Below, piece by piece: positions 1,810 through 62,528 of a DNA stretch of 64,000 nucleotides; positions within the stretch are counted from its first letter, which is position 1; each line of letters opens with the position of its first letter. The translations under genes were made by a program, and so were the position numbers. Location: contig JAKCOZ010000263.1 in NCBI GenBank assembly GCA_022605955.1, forward strand, positions 62,001 to 126,000, written 5' to 3'. This DNA is from Rallus limicola (lineage: Eukaryota; Chordata; Aves; Gruiformes; Rallidae). Under the pieces are notes generated by a model. That model made no database searches. It saw only the letters and a list, made by a program, of their open reading frames with translations, and was not told the origin of the DNA.

Positions 1810-1874
1810 CCTGTTAGGAGGTTTCAAACAAGCTAGGCCTGAAAGGCATAGCTTGTCTGAAACCTCCTAACAGG
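1810..1874. repeat. Junction palindrome 1 of 32
   Basis: Left arm has GGTTTCAAAC, one mismatch to the right arm. The preceding unit has GGCATG, the following unit GCAATTC. The next palindrome is 1631 bp on (8 monomers). Confidence 0.93.
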
Positions 1875-3440
1875 ACACACGAGCAGACCCTGTCACTTTG
1901 GCTCTCAGCCTTTTCCTTTGCCTGGAAAGAGGGAACATGCCTGGAACCTCCTACGGTGCTTTTCTCGGCCCTAGCAGACTGCAATTCAAAACATGCTAAA
2001 CGTCCAGCAATAACTCCCAAAGTAAAGAAGCTAGGCCTGAAAGGCATAGCTTGTCTGAAACCTCCTAACAGGACACACGAGCAGCCCCTGTCACTTTGGC
2101 TCTCAGCCTTTTCCTTTGCCTGGAAAGAGGGAACATGCCTGGAACCTCCTACGGTGCTTTTCTCGGCCCTAGCAGACTGCAGTTCAAAACATGCTAAACG
2201 TCCAGCAATAACTCCCAAAGTAAAGAAGCTAGGCCTGAAAGGCATAGCTTGTCTGAAACCTCCTAACAGGACACACGAGCAGACCCTGTCACTTTGGCTC
2301 TCAGCCTTTTCCTTTGCCTGGAAAGAGGGAACATGCCTGGAACCTCCTACGGTGCTTTTCTCGGCCCTAGCAGACTGCAGTTCAAAACATGCTAAACGTC
2401 CAGCAATAACTCCCAAAGTAAAGAAGCTAGGCCTGAAAGGCATAGCTTGTCTGAAACCTCCTAACATGACACACGAGCAGCCCCTGTCACTTTGGTTCTC
2501 AGCCTTTTCCTTTGCCTGGAAAGAGGGAACATTCCTGGAACCTCCTACGGTGCTTTTCTCGGCCCTAGCAGACTGCAGTTCAAAACATGCTAAACGTCCA
2601 GCAATAACTCCCAAAGTAAAGAAGCTAGGCCTGAAAGGCATAGCTTGTCTGAAACCTCCTAACAGGACACACGAGCAGACCCTGTCACTTTGGCTCTCAG
2701 CCTTTTCCTTTGCCTGGAAAGAGGGAACATGCCTGGAACCTCCTACGGTGCTTTTCTCGGCCCTAGCAGACTGCAGTTCAAAACATGCTAAACGTCCAGC
2801 AATAACTCCCAAAGTAAAGAAGCTAGGCCTGAAAGGCATAGCTTGTCTGAAACCTCCTAACAGGACACACGAGCAGCCCCTGTCACTTTGGCTCTCAGCC
2901 TTTTCCTTTGCCTGGAAAGAGGGAACATGCCTGGAACCTCCTACGGTGCTTTTCTCGGCCCTAGCAGACTGCAGTTCAAAACATGCTAAACGTCCAGCAA
3001 TAACTCCCAAAGTAAAGAAGCTAGGCCTGAAAGGCATAGCTTGTCTGAAACCTCCTAACAGGACACACGAGCAGCCCCTGTCACTTTGGCTCTCAGCCTT
3101 TTCCTTTGCCTGGAAAGAGGGAACATGCCTGGAACCTCCTACGGTGCTTTTCTCGGCCCTAGCAGACTGCAGTTCAAAACATGCTAAACGTCCAGCAATA
3201 ACTCCCAAAGTAAAGAAGCTAGGCCTGAAAGGCATAGCTTGTCTGAAACCTCCTAACATGACACACGAGCAGCCCCTGTCACTTTGGTTCTCAGCCTTTT
3301 CCTTTGCCTGGAAAGAGGGAACATGCCTGGAACCTCCTACGGTGCTTTTCTCGGCCCTAGCAGACTGCAGTTCAAAACATGCTAAACGTCCAGCAATAAC
3401 TCCCAAAGTAAAGAAGCTAGGCATGAAAGGCATAGCTTGT
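1875..3440. repeat. Block of 8 monomers
   Basis: Order T-P-T-M-T-P-P-M. The fourth copy has ACATTCCTGG in place of ACATGCCTGG near 2531. The ending P-P-M matches the run before palindrome 1 and that before palindrome 3, so block ends are more alike than block interiors. Confidence 0.92.
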
Positions 3441-3505
3441 CCTGTTAGGAGGTTTAAAACAAGCTAGGCCTGAAAGGCATAGCTTGTCTGAAACCTCCTA
3501 ACAGG
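3441..3505. repeat. Junction palindrome 2 of 32
   Basis: The only copy with GGTTTAAAAC in the left arm (two mismatches). GGCATG precedes it; the next unit has the usual GCAGTTC. Next palindrome 1829 bp on. Confidence 0.92.
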
Positions 3506-5269
3506 ACACACGAGCAGCCCCTGTCACTTTGGCTCTCAGCCTTTTCCTTTGCCTGGAAAGAGGGAACATGCCTGGAACCTCCTACGGTGCTTTTCTCGGC
3601 CCTAGCAGACTGCAGTTCAAAACATGCTAAACGTCCAGCAATAACTCCCAAAGTAAAGAAGCTAGGCCTGAAAGGCATAGCTTGTCTGAAACCTCCTAAC
3701 AGGACACACGAGCAGACCCTGTCACTTTGGCTCTCAGCCTTTTCCTTTGCCTGGAAAGAGGGAACATGCCTGGAACCTCCTACGGTGCTTTTCTCGGCCC
3801 TAGCAGACTGCAGTTCAAAACATGCTAAACGTCCAGCAATAACTCCCAAAGTAAAGAAGCTAGGCCTGAAAGGCATAGCTTGTCTGAAACCTCCTAACAT
3901 GACACACGAGCAGCCCCTGTCACTTTGGTTCTCAGCCTTTTCCTTTGCCTGGAAAGAGGGAACATGCCTGGAACCTCCTACGGTGCTTTTCTCGGCCCTA
4001 GCAGACTGCAGTTCAAAACATGCTAAACGTCCAGCAATAACTCCCAAAGTAAAGAAGCTAGGCCTGAAAGGCATAGCTTGTCTGAAACCTCCTAACAGGA
4101 CACACGAGCAGACCCTGTCACTTTGGCTCTCAGCCTTTTCCTTTGCCTGGAAAGAGGGAACATGCCTGGAACCTCCTACGGTGCTTTTCTCGGCCCTAGC
4201 AGACTGCAGTTCAAAACATGCTAAACGTCCAGCAATAACTCCCAAAGTAAAGAAGCTAGGCCTGAAAGGCATAGCTTGTCTGAAACCTCCTAACAGGACA
4301 CACGAGCAGCCCCTGTCACTTTGGCTCTCAGCCTTTTCCTTTGCCTGGAAAGAGGGAACATGCCTGGAACCTCCTACGGTGCTTTTCTCGGCCCTAGCAG
4401 ACTGCAGTTCAAAACATGCTAAACGTCCAGCAATAACTCCCAAAGTAAAGAAGCTAGGCCTGAAAGGCATAGCTTGTCTGAAACCTCCTAACAGGACACA
4501 CGAGCAGACCCTGTCACTTTGGCTCTCAGCCTTTTCCTTTGCCTGGAAAGAGGGAACATGCCTGGAACCTCCTACGGTGCTTTTCTCGGCCCTAGCAGAC
4601 TGCAGTTCAAAACATGCTAAACGTCCAGCAATAACTCCCAAAGTAAAGAAGCTAGGCCTGAAAGGCATAGCTTGTCTGAAACCTCCTAACAGGACACACG
4701 AGCAGCCCCTGTCACTTTGGCTCTCAGCCTTTTCCTTTGCCTGGAAAGAGGGAACATGCCTGGAACCTCCTACGGTGCTTTTCTCGGCCCTAGCAGACTG
4801 CAGTTCAAAACATGCTAAACGTCCAGCAATAACTCCCAAAGTAAAGAAGCTAGGCCTGAAAGGCATAGCTTGTCTGAAACCTCCTAACAGGACACACGAG
4901 CAGCCCCTGTCACTTTGGCTCTCAGCCTTTTCCTTTGCCTGGAAAGAGGGAACATGCCTGGAACCTCCTACGGTGCTTTTCTCGGCCCTAGCAGACTGCA
5001 GTTCAAAACATGCTAAACGTCCAGCAATAACTCCCAAAGTAAAGAAGCTAGGCCTGAAAGGCATAGCTTGTCTGAAACCTCCTAACATGACACACGAGCA
5101 GCCCCTGTCACTTTGGTTCTCAGCCTTTTCCTTTGCCTGGAAAGAGGGAACATGCCTGGAACCTCCTACGGTGATTTTCTCGGCCCTAGCAGACTGCAGT
5201 TCAAAACATGCTAAACGTCCAGCAATAACTCCCAAAGTAAAGAAGCTAGGCATGAAAGGCATAGCTTGT
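3506..5269. repeat. Block of 9 monomers
   Basis: Order P-T-M-T-P-T-P-P-M. The last copy carries GTGATTTTC instead of GTGCTTTTC near 5173. No indels; length fits exactly. Confidence 0.92.
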
Positions 5270-5334
5270 CCTGTTAGGAGGTTTCAAACAAGCTAGGCCT
5301 GAAAGGCATAGCTTGTCTGAAACCTCCTAACAGG
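5270..5334. repeat. Junction palindrome 3 of 32
   Basis: Left arm GGTTTCAAAC, one mismatch. GGCATG before, GCAATTC after. Next palindrome 2621 bp on. Confidence 0.93.
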
Positions 5335-7890
5335 ACACACGAGCAGACCCTGTCACTTTGGCTCTCAGCCTTTTCCTTTGCCTGGAAAGAGGGAACATGC
5401 CTGGAACCTCCTACGGTGCTTTTCTCGGCCCTAGCAGACTGCAATTCAAAACATGCTAAACGTCCAGCAATAACTCCCAAAGTAAAGAAGCTAGGCCTGA
5501 AAGGCATAGCTTGTCTGAAACCTCCTAACAGGACACACGAGCAGACCCTGTCACTTTGGCTCTCAGCCTTTTCCTTTGCCTGGAAAGAGGGAACATGCCT
5601 GGAACCTCCTACGGTGCTTTTCTCGGCCCTAGCAGACTGCAGTTCAAAACATGCTAAACGTCCAGCAATAACTCCCAAAGTAAAGAAGCTAGGCCTGAAA
5701 GGCATAGCTTGTCTGAAACCTCCTAACATGACACACGAGCAGCCCCTGTCACTTTGGTTCTCAGCCTTTTCCTTTGCCTGGAAAGAGGGAACATGCCTGG
5801 AACCTCCTACGGTGCTTTTCTCGGCCCTAGCAGACTGCAGTTCAAAACATGCTAAACGTCCAGCAATAACTCCCAAAGTAAAGAAGCTAGGCCTGAAAGG
5901 CATAGCTTGTCTGAAACCTCCTAACAGGACACACGAGCAGACCCTGTCACTTTGGCTCTCAGCCTTTTCCTTTGCCTGGAAAGAGGGAACATGCCTGGAA
6001 CCTCCTACGGTGCTTTTCTCGGCCCTAGCAGACTGCAGTTCAAAACATGCTAAACGTCCAGCAATAACTCCCAAAGTAAAGAAGCTAGGCCTGAAAGGCA
6101 TAGCTTGTCTGAAACCTCCTAACAGGACACACGAGCAGACCCTGTCACTTTGGCTCTCAGCCTTTTCCTTTGCCTGGAAAGAGGGAACATGCCTGGAACC
6201 TCCTACGGTGCTTTTCTCGGCCCTAGCAGACTGCAGTTCAAAACATGCTAAACGTCCAGCAATAACTCCCAAAGTAAAGAAGCTAGGCCTGAAAGGCATA
6301 GCTTGTCTGAAACCTCCTAACAGGACACACGAGCAGACCCTGTCACTTTGGCTCTCAGCCTTTTCCTTTGCCTGGAAAGAGGGAACATGCCTGGAACCTC
6401 CTACGGTGCTTTTCTCGGCCCTAGCAGACTGCAGTTCAAAACATGCTAAACGTCCAGCAATAACTCCCAAAGTAAAGAAGCTAGGCCTGAAAGGCATAGC
6501 TTGTCTGAAACCTCCTAACAGGACACACGAGCAGACCCTGTCACTTTGGCTCTCAGCCTTTTCCTTTGCCTGGAAAGAGGGAACATGCCTGGAACCTCCT
6601 ACGGTGCTTTTCTCGGCCCTAGCAGACTGCAGTTCAAAACATGCTAAACGTCCAGCAATAACTCCCAAAGTAAAGAAGCTAGGCCTGAAAGGCATAGCTT
6701 GTCTGAAACCTCCTAACAGGACACATGAGCAGCACCTGTCACTTTGGCTCTCAGCCTTTTCCTTTGCCTGGAAAGAGGGAACATGCCTGGAACCTCCTAC
6801 GGTGCTTTTCTCGGCCCTAGCAGACTGCAGTTCAAAACATGCTAAACGTCCAGCAATAACTCCCAAAGTAAAGAAGCTAGGCATGAAAGGCATAGCTTGT
6901 CTGAAACCTCCTAACAGGACACACGAGCAGACCCTGTCACTTTGGCTCTCAGCCTTTTCCTTTGCCTGGAAAGAGGGAACATGCCTGGAACCTCCTACGG
7001 TGCTTTTCTCGGCCCTAGCAGACTGCAGTTCAAAACATGCTAAACGTCCAGCAATAACTCCCAAAGTAAAGAAGCTAGGCCTGAAAGGCATAGCTTGTCT
7101 GAAACCTCCTAACATGACACACGAGCAGACCCTGTCACTTTGGTTCGCAGCCTTTTCCTTTGCCTGGAAAGAGGGATCATGCCTGGAACCTCCTACGGTG
7201 CTTTTCTCGGCCCTAGCAGACTGCAGTTCAAAACATGCTAAACGTCCAGCAATAACTCCCAAAGTAAAGAAGCTAGGCCTGAAAGGCATAGCTTGTCTGA
7301 AACCTCCTAACAGGACACACGAGCAGCCCCTGTCACTTTGGCTCTCAGCCTTTTCCTTTGCCTGGAAAGAGGGAACATGCCTGGAACCTCCTACGGTGCT
7401 TTTCTCGGCCCTAGCAGACTGCAGTTCAAAACATGCTAAACGTCCAGCAATAACTCCCAAAGTAAAGAAGCTAGGCCTGAAAGGCATAGCTTGTCTGAAA
7501 CCTCCTAACAGGACACACGAGCAGCCCCTGTCACTTTGGCTCTCAGCCTTTTCCTTTGCCTGGAAAGAGGGAACATGCCTGGAACCTCCTACGGTGCTTT
7601 TCTCGGCCCTAGCAGACTGCAGTTCAAAACATGCTAAACGTCCAGCAATAACTCCCAAAGTAAAGAAGCTAGGCCTGAAAGGCATAGCTTGTCTGAAACC
7701 TCCTAACATGACACACGAGCAGCCCCTGTCACTTTGGTTCTCAGCCTTTTCCTTTGCCTGGAAAGAGGGAACATGCCTGGAACCTCCTACGGTGCTTTTC
7801 TCGGCCCTAGCAGACTGCAGTTCAAAACATGCTAAACGTCCAGCAATAACTCCCAAAGTAAAGAAGCTAGGCATGAAAGGCATAGCTTGT
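5335..7890. repeat. Block of 13 monomers
   Basis: Order T-T-M-T-T-T-T-H-T-Mt-P-P-M. The H copy (CATGAGCAGCACC near 6724) is followed by a GGCATG copy, then an Mt copy with GGTTCGC and GGGATCATG near 7170. This H-T-Mt signature recurs 5487 bp downstream. Confidence 0.92.
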
Positions 7891-7955
7891 CCTGTTAGGA
7901 GGTTTCAAACAAGCTAGGCCTGAAAGGCATAGCTTGTCTGAAACCTCCTAACAGG
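7891..7955. repeat. Junction palindrome 4 of 32
   Basis: Left arm GGTTTCAAAC, one mismatch. The following units carry GCAATTC and then GAAAGTCATAG (8121), a pair shared with palindromes 5 and 7. Next palindrome 2027 bp on. Confidence 0.93.
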
Positions 7956-9917
7956 ACACACGAGCAGACCCTGTCACTTTGGCTCTCAGCCTTTTCCTTT
8001 GCCTGGAAAGAGGGAACATGCCTGGAACCTCCTACGGTGCTTTTCTCGGCCCTAGCAGACTGCAATTCAAAACATGCTAAACGTCCAGCAATAACTCCCA
8101 AAGTAAAGAAGCTAGGCCTGAAAGTCATAGCTTGTCTGAAACCTCCTAACAGGACACACGAGCAGCCCCTGTCACTTTGGCTCTCAGCCTTTTCCTTTGC
8201 CTGGAAAGAGGGAACATGCCTGGAACCTCCTACGGTGCTTTTCTCGGCCCTAGCAGACTGCAGTTCAAAACATGCTAAACGTCCAGCAATAACTCCCAAA
8301 GTAAAGAAGCTAGGCCTGAAAGGCATAGCTTGTCTGAAACCTCCTAACAGGACACACGAGCAGACCCTGTCACTTTGGCTCTCAGCCTTTTCCTTTGCCT
8401 GGAAAGAGGGAACATGCCTGGAACCTCCTACGGTGCTTTTCTCGGCCCTAGCAGACTGCAGTTCAAAACATGCTAAACGTCCAGCAATAACTCCCAAAGT
8501 AAAGAAGCTAGGCCTGAAAGGCATAGCTTGTCTGAAACCTCCTAACATGACACACGAGCAGCCCCTGTCACTTTGGTTCTCAGCCTTTTCCTTTGCCTGG
8601 AAAGAGGGAACATGCCTGGAACCTCCTACGGTGCTTTTCTCGGCCCTAGCAGACTGCAGTTCAAAACATGCTAAACGTCCAGCAATAACTCCCAAAGTAA
8701 AGAAGCTAGGCCTGAAAGGCATAGCTTGTCTGAAACCTCCTAACAGGACACACGAGCAGACCCTGTCACTTTGGCTCTCAGCCTTTTCCTTTGCCTGGAA
8801 AGAGGGAACATGCCTGGAACCTCCTACGGTGCTTTTCTCGGGCCTAGCAGACTGCAGTTCAAAACATGCTAAACGTCCAGCAATAACTCCCAAAGTAAAG
8901 AAGCTAGGCCTGAAAGGCATAGCTTGTCTGAAACCTCCTAACAGGACACCCGAGCAGACCCTGTCACTTTGGCTCTCAGCCTTTTCCTTTGCCTGGAAAG
9001 AGGGAACATGCCTGGAACCTCCTACGGTGCTTTTCTCGGCCCTAGCAGACTGCAGTTCAAAACATGCTAAACGTCCAGCAATAACTCCCAAAGTAAAGAA
9101 GCTAGGCCTGAAAGGCATAGCTTGTCTGAAACCTCCTAACAGGACACATGAGCAGCACCTGTCACTTTGGCTCTCAGCCTTTTCCTTTGCCTGGAAAGAG
9201 GGAACATGCCTGGAACCTCCTACGTTGCTTTTCTCGGCCCTAGCAGACTGCAGTTCAAAACATGCTAAACGTCCAGCAATAACTCCCAAAGTAAAGAAGC
9301 TAGGCATGAAAGGCATAGCTTGTCTGAAACCTCCTAACAGGACACACGAGCAGGCCCTGTCACTTTGGCTCTCAGCCTTTTCCTTTGCCTGGAAAGAGGG
9401 AACATGCCTGGAACCTCCTACGGTGCTTTTCTCGGCCCTAGCAGACTGCAGTTCAAAACATGCTAAACGTCCAGCAATAACTCCCAAAGTAAAGAAGCTA
9501 GGCCTGAAAGGCATAGCTTGTCTGAAACCTCCTAACATGACACACGAGCAGACCCTGTCACTTTGGTTCGCAGCCTTTTCCTTTGCCTGGAAAGAGGGAA
9601 CATGCCTGGAACCTCCTACGGTGCTTTTCTCGGCCCTAGCAGACTGCAGTTCAAAACATGCTAAACGTCCAGCAATAACTCCCAAAGTAAAGAAGCTAGG
9701 CATGAAAGGCATAGCTTGTCTGAAACCTCCTAACATGACACACGAGCAGACCCTGTCACTTTGGTTCGCAGCCTTTTCCTTTGCCTGGAAAGAGGGAACA
9801 TGCCTGGAACCTCCTACGGTGCTTTTCTCGGCCCTAGCAGACTGCAGTTCAAAACATGCTAAACGTCCAGCAATAACTCCCAAAGTAAAGAAGCTAGGCA
9901 TGAAAGGCATAGCTTGT
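7956..9917. repeat. Block of 10 monomers
   Basis: Order T-P-T-M-T-E-H-T(variant CAGGCCC)-Mt-Mt. Single changes include TCGGGCC near 8841 and CTACGTTGC near 9222. This is the only place with two adjacent Mt copies, suggesting a local one-unit duplication. Confidence 0.9.
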
Positions 9918-9982
9918 CCTGTTAGGAGGTTTCAAACAAGCTAGGCCTGAAAGGCATAGCTTGTCTGAAACCTCCTAACAGG
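9918..9982. repeat. Junction palindrome 5 of 32
   Basis: Left arm GGTTTCAAAC, one mismatch. Followed by GCAATTC and GAAAGTCATAG, exactly 2027 bp after the same markers at palindrome 4. Next palindrome 1631 bp on. Confidence 0.93.
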
Positions 9983-11548
9983 ACACACGAGCAGACCCTG
10001 TCACTTTGGCTCTCAGCCTTTTCCTTTGCCTGGAAAGAGGGAACATGCCTGGAACCTCCTACGGTGCTTTTCTCGGCCCTAGCAGACTGCAATTCAAAAC
10101 ATGCTAAACGTCCAGAAATAACTCCCAAAGTAAAGAAGCTAGGCCTGAAAGTCATAGCTTGTCTGAAACCTCCTAACAGGACACACGAGCAGCCCCTGTC
10201 ACTTTGGCTCTCAGCCTTTTCCTTTGCCTGGAAAGAGGGAACATGCCTGGAACCTCCTACGGTGCTTTTCTCGGCCCTAGCAGACTGCAGTTCAAAACAT
10301 GCTAAACGTCCAGCAATAACTCCCAAAGTAAAGAAGCTAGGCCTGAAAGGCATAGCTTGTCTGAAACCTCCTAACATGACACACGAGCAGACCCTGTCAC
10401 TTTGGTTCGCAGCCTTTTCCTTTGCCTGGAAAGAGGGAACATGCCTGGAACCTCCTACGGTGCTTTTCTCGGCCCTAGCAGACTGCAGTTCAAAACATGC
10501 TAAACGTCGAGCAATAACTCCCAAAGTAAAGAAGCTAGGCATGAAAGGCATAGCTTGTCTGAAACCTCTTAACAGGACACACGAGCAGACCCTGTCACTT
10601 TGGCTCTCAGCCTTTTCCTTTGCCTGGAAAGAGGGAACATGCCTGGAACCTCCTACGGTGCTTTTCTCGGTTCTAGCAGACTGCAGTTCAAAACATGCTA
10701 AACGTCCAGCAATAACTCCCAAAGTAAAGAAGCTAGGCATGAAAGGCATAGCTTGTCTGAAACCTCCTAACATGACACACGAGCAGCCCCTGTCACTTTG
10801 GTTCTCAGCCTTTTCCTTTGCCTGGAAAGAGGGAACATGCCTGGAACCTCCTACGGTGCTTTTCTCGGCCCTAGCAGACTGCAGTTCAAAACATGCTAAA
10901 CGTCCAGCAATAACTCCCAAAGTAAAGAAGCTAGGCCTGAAAGGCATAGCTTGTCTGAAACCTCCTAACAGGACACACGAGCAGCCCCTGTCACTTTGGC
11001 TCTCAGCCTTTTCCTTTGCCTGGAAAGAGGGAACATGCCTGGAACCTCCTACGGTGCTTTTCTCGGCCTTAGCAGACTGCAGTTCAAAACATGCTAAACG
11101 TCCAGCAATAACTCCCAAAGTAAAGAAGCTAGGCCTGAAAGGCATAGCTTGTCTGAAACCTCCTAACAGGACACACAAGCAGACCCTGTCACTTTGGCTC
11201 TCAGCCTTTTCCTTTGCCTGGAAAGAGGGAACATGCCTGGAACCTCCTACGGTGCTTTTCTCGGCCCTAGCAGACTGCAATTCAAAACATGCTAAACGTC
11301 CAGCAATAACTCCCAAAGTAAAGAAGCTAGGCCTGAAAGGCATAGCTTGTCTGAAACCTCCTAACAGGACACACGAGCAAACCCTTTCACTTTGGCTCTC
11401 ATCTTTTTCCTTTGCTTGGAAAGAGGGAACATGCCTGGAACCTCCTACGGTGCTTTTCTCGGCCCTAGCAGACTGCAGCTCAAAACATGCTAAACGTATA
11501 GCAATAACTCCCAAAGTAAAGAAGCTAGGCATGAAAGGCATAGCTTGT
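9983..11548. repeat. Block of 8 monomers
   Basis: Order T-P-Mt-T-M-P-K-F. Distinctive markers are CCTCTTAAC near 10565, TCGGTTCTAGC near 10668, CGGCCTTAGC near 11065, and a final F copy with CATCTTTTTCC, followed by GCAGCTC and CGTATAGC near 11506. All of these recur 4450 bp downstream. Confidence 0.92.
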
Positions 11549-11613
11549 CCTGTTAGGAGGTTTCAGACAAGCTAGGCCTGAAAGGCATAGCTTGTCTGAA
11601 ACCTCCTAACAGG
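11549..11613. repeat. Junction palindrome 6 of 32
   Basis: First copy with the fully complementary GGTTTCAGAC left arm. GGCATG before, GCAGTTC after. Next palindrome 1829 bp on. Confidence 0.93.
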
Positions 11614-13377: not shown

Positions 13378-13442
13378 CCTGTTAGGAGGTTTCAAACAAG
13401 CTAGGCCTGAAAGGCATAGCTTGTCTGAAACCTCCTAACAGG
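13378..13442. repeat. Junction palindrome 7 of 32
   Basis: Left arm GGTTTCAAAC, one mismatch. GCAATTC and GAAAGTCATAG follow, the third copy of this pair. Next palindrome 2621 bp on. Confidence 0.93.
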
Positions 13443-49707: not shown

Positions 49708-49772
49708 CCTGTTAGGAGGATTCAGACAAGCTAGGCCTGAAAGGCATAGCTTGTTTGAAACCTCCTAACAGG
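49708..49772. repeat. Junction palindrome 26 of 32
   Basis: Left arm GGATTCAGAC, right arm with TTTG, two mismatches. Preceded by GGCATG and AGCTTTTCC. Next palindrome 839 bp on. Confidence 0.92.
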
Positions 49773-50546
49773 ACAAACGAGCAGCCCCTGTCACTTTGGC
49801 TCTCAGCCTTTTCCTTTGCCTGGAAAGAGGGAACATGCCTGGAACCTCCTACGGTGCTTTTCTCGGCCCTAGCAGACTGCAATTCAAAACATGCTAAACG
49901 TCCAGCAATAACTCCCAAAGTAAAGAAGCTAGGCCTGAAAGGCATAGCTTGTCTGAAACCTCCTAACATGACACACGAGCAGCCCCTGTCACTTTGGTTC
50001 TCAGCCTTTTCCTTTGCCTGGAAAGAGGGAACATGCCTGGAACCTCCTACGGTGCTTTTCTCGGCCCTAGCAGACTGCAGTTCAAAACATGCTAAACGTC
50101 CAGCAATAACTCCCAAAGTAAAGAAGCTAGGCCTGAAAGGCATAGCTTGTCTGAAACCTCCTAACAGGACACACGAGCAGCCCCTGTCACTTTGGCTCTC
50201 AGCCTTTTCCTTTGCCTGGAAAGAGGGAACATGCCTGGAACCTCCTACGGTGCTTTTCTCGGCCCTAGCAGACTGCAGTTCAAAACATGCTAAACGTCCA
50301 GCAATAACTCCCAAAGTAAAGAAGCTAGGCCTGAAAGGCATAGCTTGTCTGAAACCTCCTAACATGACACACGAGCAGCCCCTGTCACTTTGGTTCTCAG
50401 CCTTTTCCTTTGCCTGGAAAGAGGGAACATGCCTGGAACATCCTACGGTGCTTTTCTCGGCCCTAGCAGATTGCAGTTCAAAACATGCTAAACGTCCAGC
50501 AATAACTCCCAAAGTAAAGAAGCTAGGCATGAAAGGCATAGCTTGT
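49773..50546. repeat. Block of 4 monomers
   Basis: Order P-M-P-M. The first copy has GGACAAACGAG near 49772, the last GGAACATCC and GCAGATTGCAG near 50466. Copied at 54864. Confidence 0.92.
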
Positions 50547-50611
50547 CCTGTTAGGAGGATTCAGACAAGCTAGGCCTGAAAGGCATAGCTTGTCTGAAAC
50601 CTCCTAACAGG
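50547..50611. repeat. Junction palindrome 27 of 32
   Basis: Left arm GGATTCAGAC, one mismatch. GGCATG before, GCAGTTC after. Next palindrome 3413 bp on. Confidence 0.93.
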
Positions 50612-53600
50612 ACACACGAGCAGACCCTGTCACTTTGGCTCTCAGCCTTTTCCTTTGCCTGGAAAGAGGGAACATGCCTGGAACCTCCTACGGTGCTTTT
50701 CTCGGCCCTAGCAGACTGCAGTTCAAAACATGCTAAACGTCCAGCAATAACTCCCAAAGTAAAGAAGCGAGGCCTGAAAGGCATAGCTTGTCTGAAACCA
50801 CCTAACAGGACACACGAGCAGCCCCTGTCACTTTGGCTCTCAGCCTTTTCCTTTGCCTGGAAAGAGGGAACATGCCTGGAACCTCCTACGGTGCTTTTCT
50901 CGGCCCTAGCAGACTGCAGTTCAAAACATGCTAAACGTCCAGCAATAACTCCCAAAGTAAAGAAGCTAGGCCTGAAAGGCATAGCTTGTCTGAAACCTCC
51001 TAACAGGACACACGAGCAGACCCTGTCACTTTGGCTCTCAGCCTTTTCCTTTGCCTGGAAAGAGGGAACATGCCTGGAACCTCCTACGGTGCTTTTCTCG
51101 GCCCTAGCAGACTGCAGTTCAAAACATGCTAAACGTCCAGCAATAACTCCCAAAGTAAAGAAGCTAGGCCTGAAAGGCATAGCTTGTCTGAAACCTCCTA
51201 ACAGGACACACAAGCAGCCCCTGTCACTTTGGCTCTCAGCCTTTTCCTTTGCCTGGAAAGAGGGAACATGCCTGGAACCTCCTACGGTGCTTTTCTCGGC
51301 CCTAGCAGACTGCAGTTCAAAACATGCTAAACGTCCAGCAATAACTCCCAAAGTAAAGAAGCTAGGCCTGAAAGGCATAGCTTGTCTGAAACCTCCTAAC
51401 AGGACACACGAGCAGCCCCTGTCACTTTGGCTCTCAGCCTTTTCCTTTGCCTGGAAAGAGGGAACATGCCTGGAACCTCCTAAGGTGCTTTTCTCGGCCC
51501 TAGCAGACTGCAGTTCAAAACATGCTAAACGTCCAGCAATAACTCCCAAAGTAAAGAAGCTAGGCCTGAAAGGCATAGCTTGTCTGAAACCTCCTAACAG
51601 GACACACGAGCAGCCCCTGTCACTTTGGCTCTCAGCCTTTTCCTTTGCCTGGAAAGAGGGAACATGCCTGGAACCTCCTACGGTGCTTTTCTCGGCCCTA
51701 GCAGACTGCAGTTCAAAACATGCTAAACGTCCAGCAATAACTCCCAAAGTAAAGAAGCTAGGCCTGAAAGGCATAGCTTGTCTGAAACCTCCTAACAGGA
51801 CACACGAGCAGACCCTGTCACTTTGGCTCTCAGCCTTTTCCTTTGCCTGGAAAGAGGGAACATGCCTGGAACCTCCTACGGTGCTTTTCTCGGCCCTAGC
51901 AGACTGCAGTTCAAAACATGCTAAACGTCCAGCAATAACTCCCAAAGTAAAGAAGCTAGGCCTGAAAGGCATAGCTTGTCTGAAACCTCCTAACATGACA
52001 CACGAGCAGCCCCTGTCACTTTGGTTCTCAGCCTTTTCCTTTGCCTGGAAAGAGGGAACATGCCTGGAACCTCCTACGGTGCTTTTCTCGGCCCTAGCAG
52101 ACTGCAGTTCAAAACATGCTAAACGTCCAGCAATAACTCCCAAAGTAAAGAAGCTAGGCCTGAAAGGCATAGCTTGTCTGAAACCTCCTAACAGGACACA
52201 CGAGCAGCCCCTGTCACTTTGGTTCTCAGCCTTTTCCTTTGCCTGGAAAGAGGGAACATGCCTGGAACCTCCTACGGTGCTTTTCTCGGCCCTAGCAGAC
52301 TGCAGTTCAAAACATGCTAAACGTCCAGCAATAACTCCCAAAGTAAAGAAGCTAGGCCTGAAAGGCATAGATTGTCTAAAACCTCCTAACATGACACACG
52401 AGCAGCCCCTGTCACTTTGGTTCTCAGCCTTTTCCTTTGCCTGGAAAGAGGGAACATGCCTGGAACCTCCTACGGTGCTTTTCTCGGCCCTAGCAGACTG
52501 CAGTTCAAAACATGCTAAACGTCCAGCAATAAATCCCAAAGTAAAGAAGCTAGGCCTGAAAGGCATAGCTTGTCTGAAACCTCCTAACAGGACACACGAG
52601 CAGCCCCTGTCACTTTGGTTCTCAGCCTTTTCCTTTGCCTGGAAAGAGGGAACATGCCTGGAACCTCCTACGGTGCTTTTCTCTGCCCTAGCAGACTGCA
52701 GTTCAAAACATGCTAAACGTCCAGCAATAACTCCCAAAGTAAAGAAGCTAGGCCTGAAAGGCATAGCTTGTCTGAAACCTCCTAACAGGACACACGAGCA
52801 GATCCTGTCACTTTGGCTCTCAGCCTTTTCCTTTGCCTGGAAAGAGGGAACATGCCTGGAACCTCCTACGGTGCTTTTCTCGGCCCTAGCAGACTGCAGT
52901 TCAAAACATGCTAAACGTCCAGCAATAACTCCCAAAGTAAAGAAGCTAGGCCTGAAAGGCATAGCTTGTCTGAAACCTCCTAACAGGACACACAAGCAGA
53001 CCCTGTCACTTTGGCTCTCAGCCTTTTCCTTTGCCTGGAAAGAGGGAACATGCCTGGAACCTCCTACGGTGCTTTTCTCGGCCCTAGCAGACTGCAATTC
53101 AAAACATGCTAAACGTCCAGCAATAACTCCCAAAGTAAAGAAGCTAGGCCTGAAAGGCATAGCTTGTCTGAAACCTCCTAACAGGACACACGAGCAAACC
53201 CTTTCACTTTGGCTCTCAGCCTTTTCCTTTGCTTGGAAAGAGGGAACATGCCTGGAACCTCCTACGGTGCTTTTCTCGGCCCTAGCTGACTGCAGCTCAA
53301 AACATGCTAAACGTCCAGCAATAACTCCCAAAGTAAAGAAGCTAGGCCTGAAAGGCATAGCTTGTCTGAAACCTCCTAACAGGACACCCGAGCAGACCCT
53401 GTCACTTTGGCTCTCAGCCTTTTCCTTTGCCTGGAAAGAGGGAACATGCCTGGAACCTCCTACGGTGCTTTTCTCGGCCCTAGCAGACTGCAGTTCAAAA
53501 CATGCTAAACGTCCAGCAATAACTCCCAAAGTAAAGAAGCTAGGCCTGAAAGGCATAGCTTGTCTGAAACCTCCTAACAGGACACCCGAGCAGACCCTGT

Positions 53601-53959
53601 CACTTTGGCTCTCAGCCTTTTTCTTTGCCTGGAAAGAGGGAACATGCCTGGAACCTCCTACGGTGTTTTTCTCGGCCCTAGCAGACTGCAGTTCAAAACA
53701 TGCTAAACGTCCAGCAATAACTCCCAAAGTAAAGAAGCTAGGCCTGAAAGGCATAGCTTGTCTGAAACCTCCTAACAGGACACATGAGCAGCACCTGTCA
53801 CTTTGGCTCTCAGCCTTTTCCTTTGCCTGGAAAGAGGGAACATGCCTGGAACCTCCTACGGTGCTTTTCTCGGCCCTAGCAGACTGCAGTTCAAAACATG
53901 CTAAACGTCCAGCAATAACTCCCAAAGTAAAGAAGCTAGGCCTGAAAGGCATAGCTTTT
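50612..53959. repeat. Block of 17 monomers
   Basis: Order T-P-T-P(ACACAAGC)-P-P-T-M-Pf-M-Pf-T-K-F-E-E-H. Markers include GAAGCGAGG near 50765, CCTAAGGTGC near 51479, GATTGTCTAAAACC near 52370, CAGATCCTG near 52799 and CTAGCTGACTGC near 53282. The right 11 units are the 5091-bp copy of the end of the 45125 block. Confidence 0.92.
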
Positions 53960-54024
53960 CCTGTTAGGAGGATTCAGACAAGCTAGGCCTGAAAGGCATA
54001 GCTTGTTTGAAACCTCCTAACAGG
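53960..54024. repeat. Junction palindrome 28 of 32
   Basis: Same as palindrome 25, 5091 bp earlier: GGATTCAGAC, TTTG right arm, GGCCTG and AGCTTTTCC before. Next palindrome 839 bp on. Confidence 0.92.
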
Positions 54025-54798
54025 ACACACGAGCAGACCCTGTCACTTTGGCTCTCAGCCTTTTCCTTTGCCTGGAAAGAGGGAACATGCCTGGAACCTC
54101 CTACGGTGCTTTTCTCGGCCCTAGCAGACTGCAATTCAAAACATGCTAAACGTCCAGCAATAACTTCCAAAGTAAAGAAGCTAGGCCTGAAAGGCATAGC
54201 TTGTCTGAAACCTCCTAACATGACACACGAGCAGCCCCTGTCACTTTGGTTCTCAGCCTTTTCCTTTGCCTGGAAAGAGGGAACATGCCTGGAACCTCCT
54301 ACGGTGCTTTTCTCGGCCCTAGCAGACTGCAGCTCAAAACATGCTAAACGTCCAGCAATAACTCCCAAAGTAAAGAAGCTAGGCCTGAAAGGCATAGCTT
54401 GTCTGAAACCTCCTAACAGGACACCCGAGCAGACCCTGTCACTTTGGCTCTCAGCCTTTTCCTTTGCCTGGAAAGAGGGAACATGCCTGGAACCTCCTAC
54501 GGTGCTTTTCTCGGCCCTAGCAGACTGCAGTTCAAAACATGCTAAACGTCCAGCAATAACTCCCAAAGTAAAGAAGCTAGGCCTGAAAGGCATAGCTTGT
54601 CTGAAACCTCCTAACAGGACACCCGAGCAGACCCTGTCACTTTGGCTCTCAGCCTTTTTCTTTGCCTGGAAAGAGGGAACATGCCTGGAACCTCCTACGG
54701 TGTTTTTCTCGGCCCTAGCAGACTGCAGTTCAAAACATGCTAAACGTCCAGCAATAACTCCCAAAGTAAAGAAGCTAGGCATGAAAGGCATAGCTTTT
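54025..54798. repeat. Block of 4 monomers
   Basis: Order T-M-E-E. Matches the block at 48934 at offset 5091, including AATAACTTCC near 54162 and the TTTTTCTTTG copy. Confidence 0.92.
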
Positions 54799-54863
54799 CC
54801 TGTTAGGAGGATTCAGACAAGCTAGGCCTGAAAGGCATAGCTTGTTTGAAACCTCCTAACAGG
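54799..54863. repeat. Junction palindrome 29 of 32
   Basis: Counterpart of palindrome 26. Two mismatches. GCAATTC follows. Next palindrome 839 bp on. Confidence 0.92.
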
Positions 54864-55637
54864 ACAAACGAGCAGCCCCTGTCACTTTGGCTCTCAGCCT
54901 TTTCCTTTGCCTGGAAAGAGGGAACATGCCTGGAACCTCCTACGGTGCTTTTCTCGGCCCTAGCAGACTGCAATTCAAAACATGCTAAACGTCCAGCAAT
55001 AACTCCCAAAGTAAAGAAGCTAGGCCTGAAAGGCATAGCTTGTCTGAAACCTCCTAACATGACACACGAGCAGCCCCTGTCACTTTGGTTCTCAGCCTTT
55101 TCCTTTGCCTGGAAAGAGGGAACATGCCTGGAACCTCCTACGGTGCTTTTCTCGGCCCTAGCAGACTGCAGTTCAAAACATGCTAAACGTCCAGCAATAA
55201 CTCCCAAAGTAAAGAAGCTAGGCCTGAAAGGCATAGCTTGTCTGAAACCTCCTAACAGGACACACGAGCAGCCCCTGTCACTTTGGCTCTCAGCCTTTTC
55301 CTTTGCCTGGAAAGAGGGAACATGCCTGGAACCTCCTACGGTGCTTTTCTCGGCCCTAGCAGACTGCAGTTCAAAACATGCTAAACGTCCAGCAATAACT
55401 CCCAAAGTAAAGAAGCTAGGCCTGAAAGGCATAGCTTGTCTGAAACCTCCTAACATGACACACGAGCAGCCCCTGTCACTTTGGTTCTCAGCCTTTTCCT
55501 TTGCCTGGAAAGAGGGAACATGCCTGGAACATCCTACGGTGCTTTTCTCGGCCCTAGCAGATTGCAGTTCAAAACATGCTAAACGTCCAGCAATAACTCC
55601 CAAAGTAAAGAAGCTAGGCATGAAAGGCATAGCTTGT
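54864..55637. repeat. Block of 4 monomers
   Basis: Order P-M-P-M. Matches the block at 49773, with GGACAAACGAG near 54863 and GCAGATTGCAG near 55557. Confidence 0.92.
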
Positions 55638-55702
55638 CCTGTTAGGAGGATTCAGACAAGCTAGGCCTGAAAGGCATAGCTTGTCTGAAACCTCCTAACA
55701 GG
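55638..55702. repeat. Junction palindrome 30 of 32
   Basis: Left arm GGATTCAGAC, one mismatch. GGCATG before, GCAGTTC after. Next palindrome 5591 bp on. Confidence 0.93.
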
Positions 55703-58700
55703 ACACACGAGCAGACCCTGTCACTTTGGCTCTCAGCCTTTTCCTTTGCCTGGAAAGAGGGAACATGCCTGGAACCTCCTACGGTGCTTTTCTCGGCCCT
55801 AGCAGACTGCAGTTCAAAACATGCTAAACGTCCAGCAATAACTCCCAAAGTAAAGAAGCTAGGCCTGAAAGGCATAGCTTGTCTGAAACCTCCTAACAGG
55901 ACACACGAGCAGACCCTGTCACTTTGGCTCTCAGCCTTTTCCTTTGCCTGGAAAGAGGGAACATGCCTGGAACCTCCTACGGTGCTTTTCTCGGCCCTAG
56001 CAGACTGCAGTTCAAAACATGCTAAACGTCCAGCAATAACTCCCAAAGTAAAGAAGCTAGGCCTGAAAGGCATAGCTTGTCTGAAACCTCCTAACAGGAC
56101 ACACAAGCAGCCCCTGTCACTTTGGCTCTCAGCCTTTTCCTTTGCCTGGAAAGAGGGAACATGCCTGGAACCTCCTACGGTGCTTTTCTCGGCCCTAGCA
56201 GACTGCAGTTCAAAACATGCTAAACGTCCAGCAATAACTCCCAAAGTAAAGAAGCTAGGCCTGAAAGGCATAGCTTGTCTGAAACCTCCTAACAGGACAC
56301 ACGAGCAGCCCCTGTCACTTTGGCTCTCAGCCTTTTCCTTTGCCTGGAAAGAGGGAACATGCCTGGAACCTCCTAAGGTGCTTTTCTCGGCCCTAGCAGA
56401 CTGCAGTTCAAAACATGCTAAACGTCCAGCAATAACTCCCAAAGTAAAGAAGCTAGGCCTGAAAGGCATAGCTTGTCTGAAACCTCCTAACAGGACACAC
56501 GAGCAGCCCCTGTCACTTTGGCTCTCAGCCTTTTCCTTTGCCTGGAAAGAGGGAACATGCCTGGAACCTCCTACGGTGCTTTTCTCGGCCCTAGCAGACT
56601 GCAGTTCAAAACATGCTAAACGTCCAGCAATAACTCCCAAAGTAAAGAAGCTAGGCCTGAAAGGCATAGCTTGTCTGAAACCTCCTAACATGACACACGA
56701 GCAGCCCCTGTCACTTTGGTTCTCAGCCTTTTCCTTTGCCTGGAAAGAGGGAACATGCCTGGAACCTCCTACGGTGCTTTTCTCGGCCCTAGCAGACTGC
56801 AGTTCAAAACATGCTAAACGTCCAGCAATAACTCCCAAAGTAAAGAAGCTAGGCCTGAAAGGCATAGCTTGTCTGAAACCTCCTAACAGGACACACGAGC
56901 AGCCCCTGTCACTTTGGCTCTCAGCCTTTTCCTTTGCCTGGAAAGAGGGAACATGCCTGGAACCTCCTACGGTGCTTTTCTCGGCCCTAGCAGACTGCAG
57001 CTCAAAACATGCTAAACGTCCAGCAATAACTCCCAAAGTAAAGAAGCTAGGCCTGAAAGGCATAGCTTGTCTGAAACCTCCTAACAGGACACCCGAGCAG
57101 ACCCTGTCACTTTGGCTCTCAGCCTTTTCCTTTGCCTGGAAAGAGGGAACATGCCTGGATCCTCCTACGGTGCTTTTCTCGGACCTAGCAGACTGCAGTT
57201 CAAAACATGCTAAACGTCCAGCAATAACTCCCAAAGTAAAGAAGCTAGGCCTGAAAGGCATAGCTTGTCTGAAACCTCCTAACAGGACACCCGAGCAGAC
57301 ACTGTCACTTTGGCTCTCAGCCTTTTCCTTTGCCTGGAAAGAGGGAACATGCCTGGAACCTCCTACGGTGCTTTTCTCGGCCCTAGCAGACTGCAGTTCA
57401 AAACATGCTAAACGTCCAGCAATAACTCCCAAAGTAAAGAAGCTCGGCCTGAAAGGCATAGCTTGTCTGAAACCTCCTAACAGGACACATGAGCAACACC
57501 TGTCACTTTAGCTCTCAGCCTTTTCCTTTGCCTGGAAAGAGGGAACATGCCTGGAACCTCCTACGGTGCTTTTCTCGGCCCTAGCAGACTGCAGTTCAAA
57601 ACATGCTAAACGTCCAGCAATAACTCCCAAAGTAAAGAAGCTAGGCCTGAAAGGCATAGCTTGTCTGAAACCTCCTAACAGGACACACGAGCAGACCCTG
57701 TCACTTTGGCTCTCAGCCTTTTCCTTTGCCTGGAAAGAGGGAACATGCCTGGAACCTCCTACGGTGCTTTTCTCGGCCCTAGCAGACTGCAGTTCAAAAC
57801 ATGCTAAACGTCCAGCAATAACTCCCAAAGTAAAGAAGCTAGGCCTGAAAGGAATAGCTTTTCTGAAACCTCCTAACATGACACACGAGCAGCCCCTGTC
57901 ACTTTGGTTTTCAGCCTTTTCCTTTGCCTGGAAAGAGGGAACATGCCTGGAACCTCCTACGGTGCTTTTCTCGGCCCTAGCAGACTGCAGTTCAAAACAT
58001 GCTAAACGTCCAGCAATAACTCCCAAAGTAAAGAAGCTAGGCCTGAAAGGCATAGCTTGTCTGAAACCTCCTAACAGGACACATGAGCAAACCCTTTCAC
58101 TTTGGCTCTCAGCTTTTTCCTTTGCTTGGAAAGAGGGAACATGCCTGGAACCTCCTACGGTGCTTTTCTCGGCCCTAGCAGACTGCAGCTCAAAATATGC
58201 TAAACGTCCAGCAATAACTCCCAAAGTAAAGAAGCTAGGCCTGAAAGGCATAGCTTGTCTGAAACCTCCTAACAGGACACACGAGCAGACCCTGTCACTT
58301 TGGCTCTCAGCCTTTTCCTTTGCCTGGAAAGAGGGAACATGCCTGGAACCTCCTACGGTGCTTTTCTCGGCCCTAGCAGACTGCAGTTCAAAACATGCTA
58401 AACGTCCAGCAATAACTCCCAAAGTAAAGAAGCTAGGCCTGAAAGGCATAGCTTGTCTGAAACCTCCTAACAGGACACACGAGCAGACCCTGTCACTTTG
58501 GCTCTCAGCCTTTTCCTTTGCCTGGAAAGAGGGAACATGCCTGGAACCTCCTACGGTGCTTTTCTCGGCCCTAGCAGACTGCAGTTCAAAACATGCTAAA
58601 CGTCCAGCAATAACTCCCAAAGTAAAGAAGCTAGGCCTGAAAGGCATAGCTTGTCTGAAACCTCCTAACAGGACACACGAGCAGACCCTGTCACTTTGGC

Positions 58701-61228
58701 TCTCAGCCTTTTCCTTTGCCTGGAAAGAGGGAACATGCCTGGAACCTCCTACGGTGCTTTTCTCGGCCCTAGCAGACTGCAGTTCAAAACATGCTAAACG
58801 TCCAGCAATAACTCCCAAAGTAAAGAAGCTAGGCCTGAAAGGCATAGCTTGTCTGAAACCTCCTAACAGGACACACAAGCAGACCCTGTCACTTTGGCTC
58901 TCAGCCTTTTCCTTTGCCTGGAAAGAGGGAACATGCCTGGAACCTCCTACGGTGCTTTTCTCGGCCCTAGCAGACTGCAATTCAAAACATGCTAAACGTC
59001 CAGCAATAACTCCCAAAGTAAAGAAGCTAGGCCTGAAAGGCATAGCTTGTCTGAAACCTCCTAACAGGACACATGAGCAAACCCTTTCACTTTGGCTCTC
59101 AGCTTTTTCCTTTGCTTGGAAAGAGGGAACATGCCTGGAACCTCCTACGGTGCTTTTCTCGGCCCTAGCAGACTGCAGCTCAAAATATGCTAAACGTCCA
59201 GCAATAACTCCCAAAGTAAAGAAGCTAGGCCTGAAAGGCATAGCTTGTCTGAAACCTCCTAACAGGACACCCGAGCAGACCCTGTCACTTTGGCTCTCAG
59301 CCTTTTCCTTTGCCTGGAAAGAGGGAACATGCCTGGAACCTCCTACGGTGCTTTTCTCGGCCCTAGCAGACTGCAGTTCAAAACATGCTAAACATCCAGC
59401 AATAAATCCCAAAGTAAAGAAGCTAGGCCTGAAAGGCATAGCTTGTCTGAAACCTCCTAACAGGACACCCGAGCAGACCCTGTCACTTTGGCTCTCAGCC
59501 TTTTCCTTTGCCTGGAAAGAGGGAACATGCCTGGAACCTCCTACGGTGCTTTTCTCGGCCCTAGCAGACTGCAGTTCAAAACATGCTAAACGTCCAGCAA
59601 TAACTCCCAAAGTAAAGAAGCTAGGCCTGAAAGGCATAGCTTGTCTGAAACCTCCTAACAGGACACCCGAGCAGACCCTGTCACTTTGGCTCTCAGCCTT
59701 TTCCTTTGCCTGGAAAGAGGGAACATGCCTGGAAGCTCCTACGGTGCTTTTCTTGGCCCTAGCAGACTGCAGTTCAAAACATGCTAAACGTCCAGCAATA
59801 ACTCCCAAAGTAAAGAAGCTAGGCCTGAAAGGCATAGCTTGTCTGAAACCTCCTAACAGGACACACGAGCAGACCCTGTCACTTTGGCTCTCAGCCTTTT
59901 CCTTTGCCTGGAAAGAGGGAACATGCCTGGAACCTCCTACGGTGCTTTTCTCGGCCCTAGCAGACTGCAGTTCAAAACATGCTAAACGTCCAGCAATAAC
60001 TCCCAAAGTATAGAAGCTAGGCCTGAAAGGCATAGCTTGTCTGAAACCTCCTAACAGGACACACGAGCAGCCCCTGTCACTTTGGCTCTCAGCCTTTTCC
60101 TTTGCCTGGAAAGAGGGAACATGCCTGGAACCTCCTACGGTGCTTTTCTCGGCCCTAGCAGACTGCAGTTCAAAACATGCTAAACGTCCAGCAATAACTC
60201 CCAAAGTAAAGAAGCTAGGCCTGAAAGGCATAGCTTGTCTGAAACCTCCTAACATGACACACGAGCAGCCCCTGTCACTTTGGTTCTCAGCCTTTTCCTT
60301 TGCCTGGAAAGAGGGAACATGCCTGGAACCTCCTACGGTGCTTTTCTCGGCCCTAGCAGACTGCAGTTCAAAACATGCTAAACGTCCAGCAATAACTCCC
60401 AAAGTAAGGAAGCTAGGCCTGAAAGGCATAGCTTGTCTGAAACCTCCTAACAGGACACACGAGCAGCCCCTGTCACTTTGGCTCTCAGCCTTTTCCTTTG
60501 CCTGGAAAGAGGGAACATGCCTGGAACCTCCTACGGTGCTTTTCTCGGCCCTAGCAAACTGCAGCTCAAAACATGCTAAACGTCCAGCAATAACTCCCAA
60601 AGTAAAGAAGCTAGGCATGAAAGGCATAGCTTGTCTGAAACCTCCTAACAGGACACACGAGCAGCCCCTGTCACTTTGGCTCTCAGCCTTTTCCTTTGCC
60701 TGGAAAGAGGGAACATGCCTGGAACCTCCTACGGTGCTTTTCTCGGCCCTAGCAGACTGCAGTTCAAAACATGCTAAACGTCCAGCAATAACTCCCAAAG
60801 TAAAGAAGCTAGGCCTGAAAGGCATAGCTTGTCTGAAACCTCCTAACAGGACACACGAGCAGCCCCTGTCACTTTGGCTCTCAGCCTTTTCCTTTGCCTG
60901 GAAAGAGGGAACATGCCTGGAACCTCCTACGGTGCTTTTCTCGGCCCTAGCAGACTGCAGTTCAAAACATGCTAAACGTCCAGCAATAACTCCCAAAGTA
61001 AAGAAGCTAGGCCTGAAAGGCATAGCTTGTCTGAAACCTCCTAACAGGACACACGAGCAGACCCTGTCACTTTGGCTCTCAGCCTTTTCCTTTGCCTGGA
61101 AAGAGGGAACATGCCTGGAACCTCCTACGGTGCTTTTCTCGGCCCTAGCAGACTGCAGTTCAAAACATGCTAAACGTCCAGCAATAACTCCCAAAGTAAA
61201 GAAGCTAGGCCTGAAAGGCATAGCTTGT
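55703..61228. repeat. Block of 28 monomers
   Basis: Order T-T-P(ACACAAGC)-P-P-M-P-E-E-H-T-M-F-T-T-T-K-F-E-E-E-T-P-M-P-P-P-T. The left part copies the block at 50612 minus one unit (CCTAAGGTGC at 56371, offset 4893). CACTTTAGCTC near 57504 and AAGTATAGAAG near 60006 put stops in the plus-strand frame. Two F copies with CAAAATATGC (58191, 59181) lie exactly 990 bp apart. The last six units match the end of the 41910 block at 16169 bp (CTAGCAAACTGCAGC near 60551). Confidence 0.92.
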
Positions 61229-61293
61229 CCTGTTAGGAGGTTTCAGACAAGCTAGGCCTGAAAGGCATAGCTTGTCTGAAACCTCCTAACAGG
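61229..61293. repeat. Junction palindrome 31 of 32
   Basis: Fully complementary GGTTTCAGAC arm, preceded by GGCCTG rather than GGCATG. Next palindrome 1235 bp on. Confidence 0.93.
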
Positions 61294-62463
61294 ACACACG
61301 AGCAGACCCTGTCACTTTGGCTCTCAGCCTTTTCCTTTGCCTGGAAAGAGGGAACATGCTTGGAACCTCCTACGGTGCTTTTCTCGGCCCTAGCAGACTG
61401 CAGTTCAAAACATGCTAAACGTCCAGCAATAACTCCCAAAGTAAAGAAGCTAGGCCTGAAAGGCCTAGCTTGTCTGAAACCTCCTAACATGACACACGAG
61501 CAGCCCCTGTCACTTTGGTTCTCAGCCTTTTCCTTTGCCTGGAAAGAGGGAACATGCCTGGAACCTCCTACGGTGCTTTTCTCGGCCCTAGCAGACTGCA
61601 GTACAAAACATGCTAAACGTCCAGCAATAACTCCCAAAGTAAAGAAGCTAGGCCTGAAAGGCATAGCTTGTCTGAAACCTCCTAACATGACACACGAGCA
61701 GCCCCTGTCACTTTGGTTCTCAGCCTTTTCCTTTGCCTGGAAAGAGGGAACATGCCTGGAACCTCCTACGGTGCTTTTCTCGGCCCTAGCAGACTGCAGT
61801 TCAAAACATGCTAAACGTCCAGCAATAACTCCCAAAGTAAAGAAGCTAGGCCTGAAAGGCATAGCTTGTCTGAAACCTCCTAACAGGACACACGAGCAGC
61901 CCCTGTCACTTTGGCTCTCAGCCTTTTCCTTTGCCTGGAAAGAGGGAACATGCCTGGAACCTCCTACGGTGCTTTTCTCGGCCCTAGCAGACTGCAGTTC
62001 AAAACATGCTAAACGTCCAGCAATAACTCCCAAAGTAAAGAAGCTAGGCCTGAAAGGCATAGCTTGTCTGAAACCTCCTAACAGGACACACGAGCAGCCC
62101 CTGTCACTTTGGCTCTCAGCCTTTTCCTTTGCCTGGAAAGAGGGAACATGCCTGGAACCTCCTACGGTGCTTTTCTCGGCCCTAGCAGACTGCAGTTCAA
62201 AACATGCTAAACGTCCAGCAATAACTCCCAAAGTAAAGAAGCTAGGCCTGAAAGGCATAGCTTGTCTGAAACCTCCTAACATGACACACGAGCAGCCCCT
62301 GTCACTTTGGTTCTCAGCCTTTTCCTTTGCCTGGAAAGAGGGAACATGCCTGGAACCTCCTACGGTGCTTTTCTCGGCCCTAGCAGACTGCAGTTCAAAA
62401 CATGCTAAACGTCCAGCAATAACTCCCAAAGTAAAGAAGCTAGGCATGAAAGGCATAGCTTGT
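61294..62463. repeat. Block of 6 monomers
   Basis: Order T-M-M-P-P-M. ATGCTTGG near 61357, AAGGCCTAGC near 61460 and GCAGTACAAAAC near 61598. The last is shared only with the copy near 45627. Confidence 0.92.
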
Positions 62464-62528
62464 CCTGTTAGGAGGATTCAGACAAGCTAGGCCTGAAAGG
62501 CATAGCTTGTCTGAAAGCTCCTAACAGG
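62464..62528. repeat. Junction palindrome 32 of 32
   Basis: Left arm GGATTCAGAC; right arm has GAAAGCTCC, unique in the window, giving two mismatches. GGCATG before, GCAATTC after. Confidence 0.92.

Follow-up and report, generated by a model that had tools for sequence, protein, structure and literature searches.

In yeast lacking rad27, folding back on a 15-bp palindrome has been reported to yield a 66-bp insertion accompanied by a short duplication (PMC5677150). Template switches described in great apes and in RNA genes follow a logic of four switch points and can create a perfect stem in one event, with MIR633 in baboon as an instance of later loop inversion (PMC7954356, PMC8794818), and macro-dyad satellites of Tribolium show inverted structure within satellite arrays together with changes of strand (PMC13081366). 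Here we analyzed a stretch of 64,000 nt from the genome of Rallus limicola (G000:C263:62001-126000, hereafter the window), the whole of which is a single head-to-tail array of a 198-bp satellite, focusing on a 47-bp insert that forms a long palindrome in 32 of its 315 units. This insert very probably originated as a snap-back template-switch mutation during replication, primed by a hairpin of the monomer itself, was then spread by duplication and left behind a palindrome prone to hairpin-mediated switching.

The insert resembles the event in rad27-deleted yeast in that a small palindrome would prime self-copying, followed by return to the template, to give an insertion with a short duplication; it differs in that it concerns a vertebrate satellite, in which one product occupies 26,733 junctions and secondary rearrangements occur in the same genome. 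The logic of four switch points, the perfect stem made in one event and the subsequent inversion of loops are shared with the great-ape and RNA-gene cases. Those cases concern genes and scattered loci, whereas a single genome here offers some 900,000 copies with short arms and 27,000 with long arms for comparison. Likewise, the Tribolium dyads are inverted whole subarrays or have arms of about 300 bp, whereas the arm described here measures 29 bp and would stem from one small insertion. Among the open-licence PMC papers listed, judged by title and opening of the abstract, we found no account of spacer inversion or template switching in satellite DNA at such a scale. A full-text search with four stretches of 18-21 bases retrieved no paper, none of the papers listed could be linked to this satellite, and an exact 26-base pattern had no match in viral or prokaryote contigs. 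At the level of sequence, the insert is explained by a mutation of a familiar type, although its location and copy number are unusual.

Within the window, 283 units are ordinary and 32 bear the insert, and the mean divergence of units from the consensus is about 1%; positions within the monomer are numbered m1-m198, C numbers denote contigs of the assembly and L numbers fetched regions. An earlier note on this DNA had described 32 copies inserted at the same monomer position, and 32 units are indeed 47 bp longer at an identical monomer site. The insert consists of two parts, a reverse-complement copy of the tail that comes after it and a second copy of m1-m27, and because of this duplication the placement after m27 given in the note is one of several equivalent options rather than a unique site. 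In copies with perfect arms, the first 26 insert bases are the reverse complement of m20-m45, and the 26 outer pairs are fully complementary in 14 of the 32 copies, both as previously described. The arm runs three bases beyond these 26 (TGT/ACA; for example, in 11546-11616), an exact 29-nt reverse complement of m20-48 being present at the insert; the hairpin proposed earlier stands, but with 29-bp arms and a palindrome of 71 bp in place of a 26-bp stem and 65 bp. The inserts of the window fall into six haplotypes, of which the commonest accounts for 13 of the 32 copies, and the spacing between inserts is irregular (2-30 monomers, mean 9.6, coefficient of variation 0.79). The three palindromes checked by DNA folding proved very stable (-33.6 to -39.2 kcal/mol), and none of the shuffles matched them; for the copy at 11546-11616 (-39.2 kcal/mol), the shuffle mean was -7.7 kcal/mol (z = -15.5, 0 of 200 shuffles as good). 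The single ordinary stretch that was folded, 2028-2098, reached -10.8 kcal/mol.

The consensus monomer already holds a hairpin at m1-25, with ten pairs, one mismatch (G7-A19) and a GAA loop, which is its strongest inverted repeat; the next-best site forms five pairs (for loops of 3-12 and up to one mismatch). We propose that a nascent bottom strand, copied down to m1, stopped there, and that its 3' end (TAGCTT) would have folded onto its own AAGCTA, the copy of m20-25, with an overlap of 6 nt. It would then have copied itself for 23 nt (m26-m48), been released, re-annealed to the parental template via GACA (m25-28), a 4-nt match, and copied m1-24 a second time, yielding 23 + 24 = 47 bp and a palindrome with 29-bp arms. 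The AC that precedes AAGCTA in the insert, where ordinary monomers have AG, would represent the footprint of the self-copied stretch. A scripted model of these steps, run on the consensus monomer, returned the commonest 47-bp insert and its junctions exactly, letter for letter, demonstrating the fit of insert and junctions at the level of sequence. Among random consensus junctions, overlaps of at least 3 nt occurred in 1.9% and overlaps of at least 6 nt in 0.04%, while those observed are 4 and 6 nt long. A nearby reverse complement, two switches with short overlaps and a pre-existing inverted repeat at the switch site, the features of a short-range template switch, are all present. On sequence grounds, a template-switch origin of the insert is strongly supported; the strand, the involvement of replication and the identity of the template monomer we infer. 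The uninserted monomer presumably represents the ancestral state, judging from its far greater genome-wide count given below.

The same hairpin also lies at inserts of mirror-image arrangement, in which the hairpin precedes a reverse-complement copy of the monomer end (E>-H-<E; 30 genome matches on 11 contigs). Five loci, covering six of the 30 matches, were read: three carry a 42-bp insert with a return overlap of GCT (3 nt), one a 37-bp insert with a return overlap of GC (2 nt) and one a longer compound product. By this route, the hairpin thus generated one or more additional inserts, three at most among the loci read, indicating that the mechanism recurs. Use of the E>-H-<E pattern as a counter of array flips was rejected, all five loci read being mirror-image inserts. 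Twelve of the 30 matches lie on one strand at C83:500-524 kb, 1.6-4.0 kb apart. The compound locus (L078, C365:97401-98000) combines a reverse run of 50 nt leaving the hairpin with a second switch, which leads into the end of a reverse tail and a forward hairpin; at L075 (C83:499901-500500), the 42-bp mirror insert is accompanied by a short AGGAC tandem duplication.

We scanned the assembly (1.395 Gb, 1,102 contigs) for monomers with and without the insert, as the earlier note had envisaged. The insert junction was found at 26,733 places (up to 2 mismatches) and the ordinary monomer 901,090 times (up to 3 mismatches), with no match of the reversed-pattern control in either case; ordinary monomers cover some 178 Mb, 12.8% of the assembly. 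Some 2.9% of monomers carry the insert genome-wide versus 10% in the window. Among the exact junction matches listed, the first contig is C20, although the satellite is also present on C1, C2 and C4, a pattern expected from a local origin. Within the window, 18 of the 32 inserts lie in duplicated runs of at least five monomers, the insert is linked to A at m10 of the upstream hairpin (29/32 versus 17/283 ordinary units), and both m44T and m73T are absent from insert-bearing units (0/32 versus 63/283 and 78/283 ordinary units, respectively). Together, the m10A linkage, the absence of the two variants and the duplicated blocks show spread by duplication. The distinct element described in the earlier note is real, recurrent and non-random. 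For its constant position, a single templated mutation that array duplication then multiplied is the best explanation, in preference to repeated insertion. A 21-monomer block with three inserts (about 46466-50764) is duplicated 25 monomers away (about 51557-55855) with one difference.

Once formed, the long palindrome would be subject to loop inversion, perfection of the loop, arm homogenisation, repeated extension and continuation onto the opposite strand. Comparison of 98 insert units (the 32 of the window and 66 from L009-L040) with 1,133 ordinary units revealed structural rearrangement in five of the former and one of the latter (Fisher p = 1.6e-5). Two of the five rearranged inserts have an inverted loop (one of them doubled), one is loopless and perfect, and two have part of the loop duplicated (one of them also inverted), while the sole rearranged ordinary unit, in L021, combines an inverted loop with a corrected mismatch. 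Regions L009-L040 were partly chosen for inserts with a normal loop, which would, if anything, bias against finding rearranged inserts. Genome-wide, an inverted loop was found at 2,176 versus 26,733 insert junctions (8.1%) and in 1,157 of 902,247 ordinary monomers (0.13%), a 63-fold excess in inserts. The copy in L010 combines an inverted loop with a compensated arm pair, G-C to C-G. Spacer inversion and arm homogenisation are thus represented by the 2,176 inverted-loop inserts and by the L010 copy, the only compensated one among the 98; both outcomes have been described for inverted repeats in yeast (PMC8604942). Cases of correction of the native G7-A19 mismatch were too few for judgement.

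We also fetched 24 loci picked for inverted loops (L042-L065), 22 of which were parsed. The 15 simple inverted-loop loci with a readable unit, spread over six contigs, show 12 different unit haplotypes, while among the remaining loci are double palindromes, an altered loop, a deletion that fuses the loop with sequence further along the monomer, and a strand reversal. That the palindrome is a rearrangement hot spot is well supported. The relevance of secondary structure, raised in the earlier note, is supported in that hairpin-type rearrangements are far commoner in inserts, though not in the sense of shown selection for structure.

The left arm of the insert is an inverted copy of a stretch present in every monomer. 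A junction leading from the forward array through the left arm into reverse monomers gave 60 matches on 31 contigs, 45 of them exact and at least two doubtful (C77:633344, C124:142020). Hence, the previous statement that all other DNA is strictly head to tail is accurate for the window but not genome-wide, where the same satellite contains strand-reversal junctions. Three such loci were read: at L059, forward monomers give way to reversed ones for as far as the fetched 600 bp extend, a short forward piece is flanked on both sides by reversed monomers at L079, and the array returns to forward after about one monomer at L080. Of these three, only L059 fits a lasting flip, and the matches of this pattern are mostly just candidates for one. 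A flip on C20 occurs at a hairpin without the insert (L039, about 290-310), where ACAAGCT is joined to forward sequence near m170, and a candidate strand switch near C31:8.898 Mb was rejected, the locus being a double palindrome.

Several points weigh against this account of origin and later instability. The hairpin copies flanking the insert mostly differ at m10, although one template copied twice should leave them equal: the upstream hairpin (1783 onward for the first insert) has A in the 29 copies mentioned above and the inner hairpin C in 31 and T in one, whereas the model gives m10C in both hairpins, matching 3 of the 32 window copies, so that a second template monomer, later mutation or conversion must be added. 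Separate mirror events number at least one but not certainly three, because a loss of 5 bp from the 42-bp insert could have produced the 37-bp one. None of the 32 window inserts is rearranged, nor is any of 3 inserts and 71 ordinary units in a further 15 kb, read with a looser criterion that would pass L021. The 8.1% and 0.13% count copies, not events, and could be inflated by amplification; similarly, many flanks of inverted-loop copies fit recurrence, but recombination could give the same, and the 60 matches of the strand-reversal pattern are a count for the insert arm alone, so that any enrichment of reversals at inserts would be conjectural. Finally, identical product letters would result if, instead of templating itself, the strand had switched to the opposite strand, parental or nascent, and then returned, an alternative that we consider rather unlikely but worth serious attention. 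Loop inversion in yeast has been ascribed to such inter-strand switching (PMC8604942), and for top-strand synthesis the switch points, in our own reading, fall in the order 4-3-1-2, so that point 2 lies before point 1; by the rule of PMC7954356, this order requires inter-strand copying unless a neighbouring monomer is the template. However, an inter-strand switch needs a second strand, whereas bottom-strand snap-back needs the monomer's own hairpin only and would occur at the strongest one that the monomer has. Intra- and inter-strand copying are not separable by sequence.

Selection could in principle keep the palindrome as a structural element, for example as a cruciform aiding centromere chromatin, in line with the very stable fold of the three tested copies and with short dyads reported as enriched at centromeres (PMC8997354; PMC13081366). 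Yet stem changes in the 98 copies comprise 78 unpaired (counted as cells; 20 variant types, with two alleles providing 40 cells) versus 1 compensated, and the arms are fully paired in 39 of the 98. With compensation of stem changes this rare, there is no indication of selection for the stem, and in view of the irregular spacing, the small share of monomers with the insert and its absence before C20 among the exact junctions listed, we regard such maintenance as very unlikely. No CENP-B box was found within 2 mismatches of the box core in the consensus monomer, and a CENP-B-box satellite was rejected on that ground. An assembly or read artefact is more improbable still: consensus quality does vary, with one-base indels at several contig-end loci, but the reversed-pattern control gave 0 against the 26,733 junctions, the copies have linked variants and distinct flanks, and the insert is also present in mid-contig regions. 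MicroRNA hairpins have been suggested to arise by template switching (PMC8794818), and the copy at 61226 gave 26 subthreshold rows to microRNA models (E up to 0.01, both strands); a transcribed microRNA-like hairpin is nevertheless scarcely credible here, as no Rfam family reached its gathering score in 1-4000 and 61150-61350 (best 47.4 bits versus 75, in one copy) and many unrelated microRNA families match, as they would for any long hairpin. Least credence of all goes to a small mobile element, similar to a miniature inverted-repeat transposable element, that inserted in a monomer and then spread; inverted arms and a flanking 27-bp direct repeat superficially resemble terminal inverted repeats with a target duplication, but the whole 47 bp is templated by the monomer itself and occupies a single site in all 98 copies examined. 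The snap-back template switch remains the reading that we prefer.

In one genome, the satellite sets some 900,000 hairpins of 10 bp against 27,000 versions with 29-bp arms, and the long-armed version would rearrange tens of times more often and be able to carry copying onto the other strand. Hairpins and cruciforms from satellite and centromeric dyads are mostly predictions, as PMC13081366 says of its own case; here, mutations would serve as the evidence, in the form of folded-strand scars at the strongest hairpin and in both mirror orientations, with scar-bearing copies some 60-fold more common at the longer stem. For palindromes within head-to-tail arrays, this offers an origin that can be tested, and for strand reversals in satellites a possible route. 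More speculatively, the satellite may act as a natural recorder of hairpin formation in vivo, with a formerly passive monomer converted by a single copying error into an element that remodels the array it sits in and may favour its own amplification, a possibility that we put forward with considerable reserve.

Table 1. Features of the satellite array, in window coordinates
Feature	Position	Strand	Remark
198-bp satellite array	1..64000	+	Head to tail, about 1% divergence from consensus
Native monomer hairpin (m1-25)	1..25	+	First of array; 10 bp, one mismatch, GAA loop; proposed snap-back primer
First 47-bp insert	1810..1856	+	20 bp reverse-complement stretch plus repeated m1-27
Palindrome 1	1807..1877	+	71 bp; folded
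Palindrome 2	3438..3508	+	
Palindrome 3	5267..5337	+	
Palindrome 4	7888..7958	+	
Palindrome 5	9915..9985	+	
Palindrome 6	11546..11616	+	Perfect 29-bp arms; folded
Palindrome 7	13375..13445	+	
Palindrome 8	15996..16066	+	
Palindrome 9	16637..16707	+	
Palindrome 10	18268..18338	+	
Palindrome 11	19107..19177	+	
Palindrome 12	19550..19620	+	
Palindrome 13	25537..25607	+	
Palindrome 14	30732..30802	+	
Palindrome 15	32363..32433	+	
Palindrome 16	33003..33073	+	
Palindrome 17	34436..34506	+	
Palindrome 18	36067..36137	+	
Palindrome 19	36706..36776	+	
Palindrome 20	37545..37615	+	
Palindrome 21	40364..40434	+	
Palindrome 22	41003..41073	+	
Palindrome 23	41842..41912	+	
Palindrome 24	45057..45127	+	
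Palindrome 25	48866..48936	+	
Palindrome 26	49705..49775	+	
Palindrome 27	50544..50614	+	
Palindrome 28	53957..54027	+	
Palindrome 29	54796..54866	+	
Palindrome 30	55635..55705	+	
Palindrome 31	61226..61296	+	One of 3 copies with m10C in the upstream hairpin
Palindrome 32	62461..62531	+	Folded

No higher-order repeat period was found in the window, where similarity is near-flat over lags of 1-60 monomers with only local block duplications, and a satellite with a regular higher-order repeat was rejected on this basis. The contig-end loci L025, L027, L029 and L032 contain many one-base indels, suggesting a weaker consensus there. The observed/expected CpG ratio of the consensus monomer is 0.33. 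At L041 (C31:8655001-8662000), an exon of the cAMP-dependent kinase RII-alpha, which marks the organism as a vertebrate, lies at 3660-3782, several kb from a satellite array.

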